Source of the DNA: Parvularculales bacterium
GTDB lineage: Bacteria > Pseudomonadota > Alphaproteobacteria > JAPOUT01 > JBAJNM01
DNA: 64,000 nucleotides
Assembly: GCA_036881865.1 (NCBI GenBank)
Contig: JBAJNM010000007.1
Span: 1 to 64,000 of the forward strand
Reading direction: 5' to 3'
A program made the translations under genes and the position numbers. The notes under the pieces were generated by a model. That model was not told where the DNA came from. It made no database searches and saw nothing but the letters and a program-made list of their open reading frames with translations. Positions 2,165-37,345 of this stretch are shown piece by piece (position 1 is the stretch's first letter; every line of letters begins with the position of its first letter).

Positions 2165-2197
2165 CGCTGAAAAATCCACCCGCCATGATACCGTCGT

Positions 2198-2590
2198 CAG
2201 ATGGCTGGATGACCACTATTTTAACAGATAGAGGAAAGTCCGGGCTCCACGGAAATACGGTGCCGGATAATGCCCGGCGAGGACGACCTAACGACAGGGT
2301 TGTCTTTAGGGAAAGTGTCGCAGAAAATATACCGCCTGTGTATATAGGTAAGGGTGAAATGGTGCGGTAAGAGCGCACCGCGCCTTCGGTAACGGAGGTG
2401 GCAGGGTAAACCCCACCGGGAGTAAGATCGAATAGAGGCGCATGGTTCAGCACTGCTGGCCGAATCTGTTTCCGGATTGTCGCCTGGGTAGGTTGCATGA
2501 GGTGTTCGGTAACGGATATCCTAGATGAATGGTCATCATTTCACTATTTTGTGGTGGAATACAGAACCCGGCTTATAGGCCATCTGGCTT
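2198..2590 (+). ncRNA. rnpB: RNase P RNA, bacterial class A
   Basis: This is the catalytic RNA of ribonuclease P, which matures the 5' ends of tRNAs and other RNAs. Universally conserved blocks are visible: GAGGAAAGTCCGGGCTCC (2231-2248), GTAAGATCGAATAGAGG (2422-2438) and ACAGAACCCGGCTTAT (2561-2576). The P1 helix can be drawn between CAGATGGC (2198-2205) and GCCATCTG (2579-2586). A T-run follows immediately (from 2589), so P1 may also serve as the transcription terminator. The length of about 390 nt is normal. It lies between the amidase and mraZ, both on the same strand. The ends are accurate to a few bases. Confidence 0.95.
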
Positions 2591-2764
2591 TTTTCTTGAT
2601 TTTTATGTGATCTGTGTTGTTTCGCTTGACTCTGTTGCTTTGTTTTAGGCGGGAAGGCTGTTTAGCATGTTGAAAGGCTTTTGTTCTTGGGTGAGCATAA
2701 TTGTTCTCTCTATGTTCTTTTTTTGATGAAGCCTTGCCATATTTCTACTGTTTGTATCTATATT

Positions 2765-34121: not shown

Positions 34122-35516
34122 TTAATCCGCAGGGCTAATCATATCTTGTGGATTAACAAGTCGGTCAAAATCTTCCGCCGTCACATAACCCAGACGTAAG
34201 GCCTCACCCCGCAAAGTAGTTCCATTCTTGTGGGCTGATTTAGCAATTTCCGTTGCCTTGTCGTAGCCAATATGCGGGGCTAGGGACGTCACCAACATCA
34301 AGGAGCGCTCCATAAGGGATTTAATATGGGCTTTGTTAGGCTCTATGCCGACAATGCAATTATCTGTAAAACTAACGACAGCGTCACCCAACAGGCGGAT
34401 GGATTGTAGCAAATTATATATCAAGACCGGTTTGAAAACATTTAGTTCAAAATGTCCCTGACTACCTGCCATCGTAATGGCGGTGTGGTTTCCCATAACT
34501 TGCACGCAAACCATGGTCATGGCCTCGCATTGGGTAGGATTAACCTTGCCGGGCATGATAGAAGAGCCAGGTTCATTTTCCGGCAGAGATAATTCGCCAA
34601 GACCAGAACGAGGGCCAGAGCCCAGCAAGCGAATATCGTTGGCGATTTTGAACAGCCCAACCGCAATCGTATTAAGAACGCCGGAGGCCTCCACGATAGC
34701 ATCGTGGGCTGCAAGGGCTTCAAACTTATTGTTAGCGGTTTTGAACTCTAGGTTAGTTATGCGGGATACTTCTGCGGCAAAGGCTATGTCAAAGCCTTTC
34801 TTGCTATTGAGGCCTGTACCTATGGCCGTACCACCCTGAGCTAAATGACGTAGACGGGGCAACGCATCCTCTAGGCGTTCTATAGCGTATTGAACCTGTG
34901 CGACGTAGCCGGAAAACTCCTGACCAAGGGTGAGAGGTGTTGCATCTTGCAGGTGGGTGCGTCCGATTTTGATTAAGCTCATCCAGTCGTGCGACTTAGC
35001 TCTGAGAGCTTTCAACAAATGCTGTAGATTGGGTATCAGCTGGCGAGTAATCTGCTCTACGGTGGCGATGTGCATGGCGGTTGGAAAGGTATCGTTGGAG
35101 GATTGCCCTTTATTGACGTGGTCGTTGGGGTGTACGGGATCTTTGGAGCCTTTTTCGCCGCCGAGTATTTCAATGGCGTAGTTGGCGATGACTTCATTGG
35201 CGTTCATGTTGGATTGAGTACCGGAACCTGTCTGCCAGACTGCCAGAGGAAAATGATTGTCAAGAGCGCCATCTGATACTTGTTGTGCAGCTTTGATAAT
35301 TGCCCTACCTATTTTTTCATCTAGAATGCCTTGAGACATATTCACTTGTGCAGCGGCTTGTTTAATAATTCCAAAGGCGCGTATTAGGGGGGGTGGCATG
35401 GTTTCACCGCCGATTCTGAAATTGCTGAGAGAGCGTTGGGTTTGAGCACCCCAATATCTATCGGTGGGCACCTCAAGGGTACCGAAGGAGTCAGTTTCGG
35501 TGCGGGTGGTGGTCAT
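34122..35516 (-). CDS. fumC: class II fumarate hydratase
   Basis: FumC is the iron-independent fumarase of the TCA cycle, interconverting fumarate and L-malate. The superfamily signature [15 protein letters not shown] (about residues 317-331) contains the catalytic-loop serine. Other blocks are [17 protein letters not shown] (substrate site), [17 protein letters not shown] and [10 protein letters not shown]. The length of 464 residues is normal. It lies downstream of sspB on the same strand with an 18-nt gap, so the two are probably cotranscribed. Confidence 0.97.
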
Positions 35517-35534: not shown

Positions 35535-36029
35535 CTATTGGTCTTGATTAGGTGCTCTTTTTTTGCGGAAGCTATCAAGAGAGACAATGCGACTTTGTTC
35601 TCCTTGTTCTTCTGGGGTCTGTTCATCGTAGTTGTTGTTCTTACTATCATCTTTGTTGTCGTCACTTTCGGCTAAGTGCAAACCAAATTGAACCTCCGGG
35701 TCAGCAAAAGAGGTAATGGCCGCGAAGGAAACACTAACGGTTTCGCGAATATCGTTAAAGGATAATATTACGGAGAACTCACTCTCTCCAACGGTTAACT
35801 CTTCAAACTGATGTTGCAAGACGATGGTCATTTTTTTGGGATACCTTTCGCGTAACCTATCAGATAAAGAGATATCCGAGCGGTTGGTCTTAAAGCCAAT
35901 GTAAAAGTGATGTCCGCCGGGCAGCCCTTCGCGGGCGGCAAACAACAAGGCTTCACGAACAATACTACGCATGGCTCTTTTGGTTATCTGATCGTAGCCT
36001 ATAAGATCTTTGGGCGGTTTTTGATCCAT
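35535..36029 (-). CDS. sspB: ClpXP adaptor SspB, alphaproteobacterial type
   Basis: SspB delivers ssrA-tagged, incompletely made proteins to the ClpXP protease. The substrate-binding beta-fold covers about residues 5-125: IGYDQITKRAMRSIVREALL, GGHHFYIGFKTNRSDISLS, YPKKMTIVLQHQFEELTV and SVSFAAITSFADPEVQFGL. A flexible acidic linker and the C-terminal ClpX-docking tail (SRIVSLDSFRKK) follow. ATG at 36029 is chosen because GAGGTC lies 8 nt upstream and homologues start there; a TTG at 36062 would add 11 residues. It lies directly downstream of ssrA on the same strand, about 60 nt away. Confidence 0.92.
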   Translation of the reverse strand: MDQKPPKDLIGYDQITKRAMRSIVREALLFAAREGLPGGHHFYIGFKTNRSDISLSDRLRERYPKKMTIVLQHQFEELTVGESEFSVILSFNDIRETVSVSFAAITSFADPEVQFGLHLAESDDNKDDSKNNNYDEQTPEEQGEQSRIVSLDSFRKKRAPNQDQ

Positions 36030-36089
36030 GTGGTTGACCTCATGGTGAACAGCAACCAACAATAGCAGAAATACAAATCAGTACCAGAG

Positions 36090-36425
36090 AGTAGCGGCGG
36101 GCTTCTGTTGCCGGGTGCCCGCCTGACCCCGCCTGACCGCGCGACCGGTCAGGACGTTATTCGAAGCTGTCGCACTGCTTATGCAGCGAGACGTGCTTCC
36201 GCATAGTTGTCGTTGGCAACTATAAAGTCTGGCCCGATAACAGTGGTGCCATGCCGAGCGAAAGAGCCGCTTTTACACCCTCGTCGATCCTATCTCGCCC
36301 CCAAAAAATCAAACTGCCCATTGTGAAAGATTATGTGGATAAATGGTGGAGGCGCCGGGTACTGCCCCCGGGTCCGATGAGTTTATTATGCGATTCGTTT
36401 ATCGCTATAGCTGACAGAGTCAGCC
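36090..36425 (-). ncRNA. ssrA: transfer-messenger RNA, circularly permuted two-piece (alpha) type
   Basis: tmRNA rescues stalled ribosomes and adds a degradation tag. On the minus strand the acceptor piece comes first: a GCGAT/ATCGC hairpin (36390-36405), then CGGCGCCTCCACCA with encoded CCA at 36344-36346. A 41-nt intervening segment (36303-36343) follows. The coding piece begins GGGGGCGAGATAGGATCGAC (36302 downward). The two ends pair as a 7-bp acceptor stem containing the G3-U70 wobble needed by alanyl-tRNA synthetase. The tag frame ANDNYAEARLAA is at 36217-36182, stop at 36181-36179. A GGCGGGC/GCCCGCC hairpin (36096-36123) closes the 3' region. The precursor ends are estimated. Confidence 0.94.
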
Positions 36426-36430
36426 TGTTA

Positions 36431-36460
36431 ACTATAGGGGACAGGGGTGAGAAATGCAAA
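36431..36460 (-). promoter_or_regulatory. candidate sigma70 promoter of ssrA
   Basis: The minus strand has TTTGCA (36460-36455) and TATAGT (36436-36431) with an 18-nt spacer. These match the sigma70 consensus at 4/6 and 5/6 positions. Transcription would begin near 36424, just before a small GCTGA/TCAGC hairpin and the acceptor piece of tmRNA. This is a sequence-only prediction. Confidence 0.5.
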
Positions 36461-36592
36461 CACGCCCTTCTGGGATGAGTCGCAAAGAGCGAAGTGTAAA
36501 AAACCTAAAAGAGTGTGTTGAGAGAGTTAACACGACAGAGGAATGATGAGAAATTGATGGCATAAGGCAAGGTTTCGCAGATACTGTCGTTC

Positions 36593-37345
36593 ATGCGCCA
36601 GTATCTTGAATTCATGGCTGATATTCTGGAAACTGGCGTTGATCGGACAGATTGCACTGGTACTGTGGGGCTTGAAGCGTGTTTGGACGTCTAATGCGGT
36701 TTGATCTGGCGGATAGTTCTCCTCTCCTTACAGCAAATTGTTGTGGTTTCTTCAGGGTGATACGAATGTTAGCACCTTAAATGATAATGGTGTGATTATT
36801 TGGGACGAATGGGCCGATGAGAAGGGTGATCTTGGTTTGGTTTATGGCCATCGATGGCGTTTCGTGGTCGGGACGTAATGGTGAAGCCATTGACCAAATA
36901 AGCACAGTGGTGAATAATGCAAAAAAGCAATCCGAACTTGAGGCACCTTATTGTGAGTGCTTGAAATACCGGTGACCTTGAGGATATGGCTTTACTGCCG
37001 TGTCATTGCTTGTTTCAATTTCATGTAGCGGAGGGGCCAGTTGTCCTGCCAATTGTGCCGACGCTCAGCGGGTTTTTTCTGAGAGTACTGTTTAACATAG
37101 CCTCCTACGCCTTGCTTTACGGCCATAATGGCGCTAAAGTCAGGCGAATTTATTCATACGATGGGAGATGCATACCTCTATAAGAACCATTTCACTCAAG
37201 TGCGCCAGCAGTTTTAAAGCGCACCCCCAAACCTTTGCCGGTTCTTTTTATGAATCCTACCATCAAGGATATATTCAACTTCCGTTATGAAGGTTTTTGA
37301 ATTGTTTATCATAGGCACAAAATAGAAGCTTCAGAAGGGCGTTAT
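36593..37345 (+). pseudogene. thyA: thymidylate synthase (thyA) pseudogene
   Basis: From ATG 36593 the sequence reads MRQYLEFMADILETGVDRTD, a near-perfect ThyA N-terminus. Frame jumps and stops then interrupt it, but ThyA segments continue in order. [13 protein letters not shown] appears near 36690, then the DTNV, NDNGV and WDEWADE region (36750-36820), a YGH then IDQIS region (36840-36910), and LPCHCLFQFHVAEG with the active-site cysteine (36995-37035). FNIASYALL is near 37100, GDAYLY..HF near 37160 and DIFNFRYEGF near 37270. No frame is open across it, so it cannot give an active enzyme. It precedes folA, the usual thyA-folA order. Confidence 0.9.

Follow-up and report, generated by a model that had tools for sequence, protein, structure and literature searches.

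The minus strand of the window (the whole 64,000-nucleotide stretch analysed, positions 1 to 64,000 of contig JBAJNM010000007.1 of a Parvularculales bacterium) carries a circularly permuted tmRNA gene, ssrA, followed by sspB, which encodes the ssrA-tagged protein adaptor for ClpXP. tmRNA rescues ribosomes that have become stuck and marks the incomplete proteins on them for degradation. The features of the locus, with the evidence that places them, are:

36431..36460, minus strand: sigma70-like ssrA promoter, TTTGCA-18-TATAGT, with the -35 TTTGCA at 36460-36455 and the -10 TATAGT at 36436-36431 (consensus scan)
36344..36425, minus strand: tmRNA acceptor piece, comprising 5' hairpin, T arm, acceptor 3' strand and CCA; 5' end approximate (RF01849, ARAGORN, sequence)
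36346-36344, minus strand: encoded CCA (sequence)
36303..36343, minus strand: 41-nt segment between the CCA and the coding piece (sequence)
36093..36302, minus strand: tmRNA coding piece, starting with the acceptor 5' strand GGGGGCG; 3' end approximate (RF01849, ARAGORN, acceptor-pair covariation in relatives)
36179..36217, minus strand: tag reading frame ANDNYAEARLAA plus stop (ARAGORN; identical tag in several relatives)
36096..36123, minus strand: 3' hairpin of the coding piece, GGCGGGC / GCCCGCC, with loop CCNGGCAACAGAA (covariation in relatives)
35535..36029, minus strand: sspB, 164 aa (PF04386, E=6.6e-38; solved relatives 2qas, 2qaz and 2nys)
34122..35516, minus strand: fumC, next gene of a conserved block and often found after sspB in relatives (Pfam Lyase_1 and FumaraseC_C)
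36581-37333, plus strand: decayed thyA (thymidylate synthase) pseudogene

An earlier note, made from the letters alone, had proposed a permuted tmRNA gene here, and two methods agree on it. The Rfam alpha_tmRNA covariance model (RF01849) matched the minus strand at 36093-36463 over its full length (model positions 1-355) with 274.1 bits and E=1e-78, the gathering score being 50, and the tRNA-like core was also matched by tmRNA_permuted (RF04321) with 132.9 bits. Independently, ARAGORN reported a permuted tmRNA at 36088-36436 on the same strand with the tag ANDNYAEARLAA. A chance match was ruled out by the E-value together with covariation among relatives. Frame-based calling would, as had been anticipated, meet only short spurious frames at this locus, the longest being an antisense ORF of 75 aa (36251-36478).

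The position of the acceptor piece upstream of the coding piece, with its encoded CCA, can be read directly from the sequence. The acceptor strands CGCCTCC (36354-36348) and GGGGGCG (36302-36296) are paired at 7/7 positions in a stem bridging both pieces, which includes the claimed G3-U70 pair (36300 with 36350). Conservation was assessed in 108 distinct alphaproteobacterial tmRNA genes, both acceptor strands being readable in 101; G3-U70 is retained in 100 of these 101, and compensatory changes occur at pairs 5:68 and 6:67 (G-C to A-U, C-G, U-A; C-G to U-A). The pairs of the coding-piece 3' hairpin also covary, across 95 relatives. The tag has a hydrophobic AA end followed by a stop and is letter-for-letter the same in other alphaproteobacteria. 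By analogy with the tmRNA family, the mature molecule would consist of two pieces, and the 41-nt segment between them is expected to be lost in processing. The locus is an ordinary alphaproteobacterial two-piece tmRNA gene, and its product one more tmRNA of an already known type.

Some structural variations were observed alongside. The loop CCNGGCAACAGAA (36103-36115, minus strand) is retained in 95/108 relatives though a simple hairpin leaves it unpaired; this points to a pseudoknot or another kind of contact. Permuted tmRNA genes of unusual length (about 460-630 nt) occur at L116 3495-3973 and in genomes G061, G076, G103 and G119, the extra length probably representing a longer segment between the pieces, and a Paracaedibacteraceae MAG (L103 3628-3965) encodes a 20-residue tag, ANSNKAPVANFNRASAAVAA, versus the usual 10-13.

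The sigma70-like promoter claimed ahead of the tmRNA was recovered by the consensus scan, and an equivalent element, usually CYTTT ... CCTATATT, lies at the same position before nearly all of 92 homologues. Since the Rfam match includes this promoter, the transcript probably starts near 36425 and not at 36460, the 5' end of the RF01849 match lying about 38 nt upstream of the likely start.

The slot between the tmRNA and folA, in which relatives have an intact thyA, is occupied here by the decayed copy, which is interrupted by many stops and frame changes and shares about 33% identity with the open ThyA of the same genome. Two other thyA-like genes are present in the assembly, one open (on contig C14) and the other split in two frames (on contig C16); given an assembly contamination estimate of 3%, one of these may be foreign. 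With a decayed gene next to it, the tmRNA gene could itself be a decayed or inactive copy, yet this is highly improbable: it is full length, its stems, tag, stop and promoter are all intact, and a search of the 2.33 Mb genome shows it to be the sole copy.

The gene immediately downstream on the same strand had been identified in the earlier note as sspB, an assignment borne out by a PF04386 match of 130.6 bits (threshold 27) and by its solved-structure relatives. The family's invariant residues are present, the C-terminal tail IVSLDSFRKK is conserved, and the ATG at 36029 lies 63 nt past the end of the tmRNA model. An smpB gene is present in the genome on another contig. A class A RNase P RNA gene also lies in the window (2197-2591, plus strand, 286 bits); RNase P is the expected tmRNA-processing enzyme.

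In order to establish how widely this arrangement occurs, 144 genomes spread over Alphaproteobacteria were analysed, gaps being measured to the start of the SspB domain match. Both genes are present in 134 genomes, and in 91 of these sspB lies directly downstream of ssrA on the same strand with a gap of 37-395 nt; in 16 further genomes it lies 0.5-5 kb downstream, again on the same strand, and any other arrangement within 5 kb was found in 0/134. Both genes are on one contig in 115 genomes, including the 91 with adjacent genes. A second set of 80 independently fetched loci, chosen as best SspB matches in source-named records, has a tmRNA upstream of sspB on the same strand in 60 cases (within 400 nt in 54), among them Azospirillum, Phenylobacterium, Parvibaculum, Kaistia, Rhodomicrobium, Telmatospirillum and a Paracaedibacteraceae MAG. 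The pair belongs to a wider conserved block, hflK-folA-thyA<|>ssrA-sspB-fumC, in which hflK, folA and thyA are divergent.

The recurrence of the same order and orientation across the class shows that the linkage is inherited as part of this block, one of the two explanations that the earlier note had offered for the proximity of rescue RNA and adaptor. Class-wide linkage is well supported, and the ssrA-sspB pair is ancestral in Alphaproteobacteria, an old arrangement common to most of the class. It is not universal, even near the lineage of the window: the genes are apart in about a third of genomes, and a member of the same order (G002) has a tmRNA without sspB beside it. Loss of one gene tends to accompany loss of the other in a Fisher test that ignores phylogeny (p=6e-5, or 0.015 when two weak tmRNA matches are scored as present). 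Another genome of the same order, a single contig of 1.7 Mb (G001), has neither an alpha_tmRNA match nor SspB. When the permuted model was run across the whole phylum, matches outside Alphaproteobacteria were mostly weak. A statement of the ssrA-sspB linkage was not found in the searchable literature, which does not include key older papers; an earlier mention is possible, and the linkage is therefore not claimed as new.

Linkage alone is no proof of shared regulation, because conservation extends to the flanking genes on either side. The gap itself was scanned: within its 63 nt no terminator pattern was detected by a simple scan, of a kind that misses long-loop hairpins, and no second promoter was detected on the same strand. 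Terminator patterns in 52 relatives numbered 2, against 1.75 expected from shuffles, which is no excess in a scan blind to the long-loop 3' hairpin. This GC-rich hairpin of the tmRNA could act as a terminator; the T content after it is low here (3/10), and a T-rich tail is found there in some relatives. The folding energy of the 3' region together with the gap was unremarkable (z -1.2).

Spacing, orientation and the absence of a detected terminator fit shared regulation of ssrA and sspB, and the short gap in which neither terminator nor second promoter was found makes cotranscription plausible. A fuller version, that in Alphaproteobacteria the pair is an ancestral operon in which transcription from the ssrA promoter reads through to yield sspB mRNA, which tmRNA 3'-end processing sets free, so that tagging and delivery come under one promoter, is put forward tentatively, with slightly less than an even chance of being right. 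The tmRNA being as described, the closeness of sspB could equally reflect preserved gene order only, with the two genes transcribed and regulated apart. Conservation of the whole block, and not of the pair alone, speaks for this, as do the insertions tolerated between the genes in the 16 genomes mentioned above and the possibility that the 3' hairpin is a terminator in some relatives; yet the pair is tighter than the remainder of the block and has one orientation wherever the two genes lie no more than 5 kb apart, and the gap scan also argues the other way. This reading too falls a little short of even odds, plain retention of gene order and cotranscription being about as likely as each other. 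The broader statement, that the locus comprises the only ssrA gene of the cell (permuted alphaproteobacterial type) and then sspB, with a conserved promoter and most likely some read-through into sspB, is held with near certainty.

Two-piece processing, alanine charging, tagging and SspB delivery to ClpXP are known for the tmRNA family (PMC3985003, PMC11915505). By extension from these, and from the observed sequence, conserved structure, conserved promoter, synteny and presence of smpB, transcription would start near 36425 from the conserved promoter, and tRNA-type processing would presumably involve an RNase P cut before GGGGGCG and trimming at the CCA. The 41-nt segment would be removed, leaving acceptor and coding pieces held together by the acceptor stem. 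Charged with alanine and accompanied by SmpB, the tmRNA would enter stalled ribosomes and add A+ANDNYAEARLAA; SspB would, as in the known family, bind this tag and pass the protein to ClpXP. Most likely some transcription would continue into sspB, so that RNA and adaptor would share a promoter.

The useful part of these results is the class-wide ssrA-sspB order, which connects the RNA that tags proteins with the adaptor by which the tagged products are disposed of, and aids annotation of both genes. In model species such as Caulobacter, shared expression lends itself to a direct test.

The ssrA of Caulobacter, an example of the alphaproteobacterial two-piece tmRNA (Keiler et al. 2000, reviewed in PMC3985003), also belongs to RF01849 and resembles the gene described here in its permuted order, encoded CCA, G3-U70 pair, tag, conserved promoter and 3' hairpin, the difference being ordinary sequence divergence and nothing more. 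Likewise, the SspB-alpha proteins of Caulobacter (2qas, 2qaz) and Agrobacterium (2nys) share with the SspB described here, which matches these chains at E 1e-25 to 1e-27, membership of PF04386 and the conserved C-terminal tail. The window SspB is about 40-50% identical to other members of the class, and its binding of the tag is predicted. In Escherichia coli, smpB adjoins ssrA; the likeness is that a trans-translation gene lies beside ssrA there, whereas in the window genome the neighbour is the proteolysis adaptor gene sspB.
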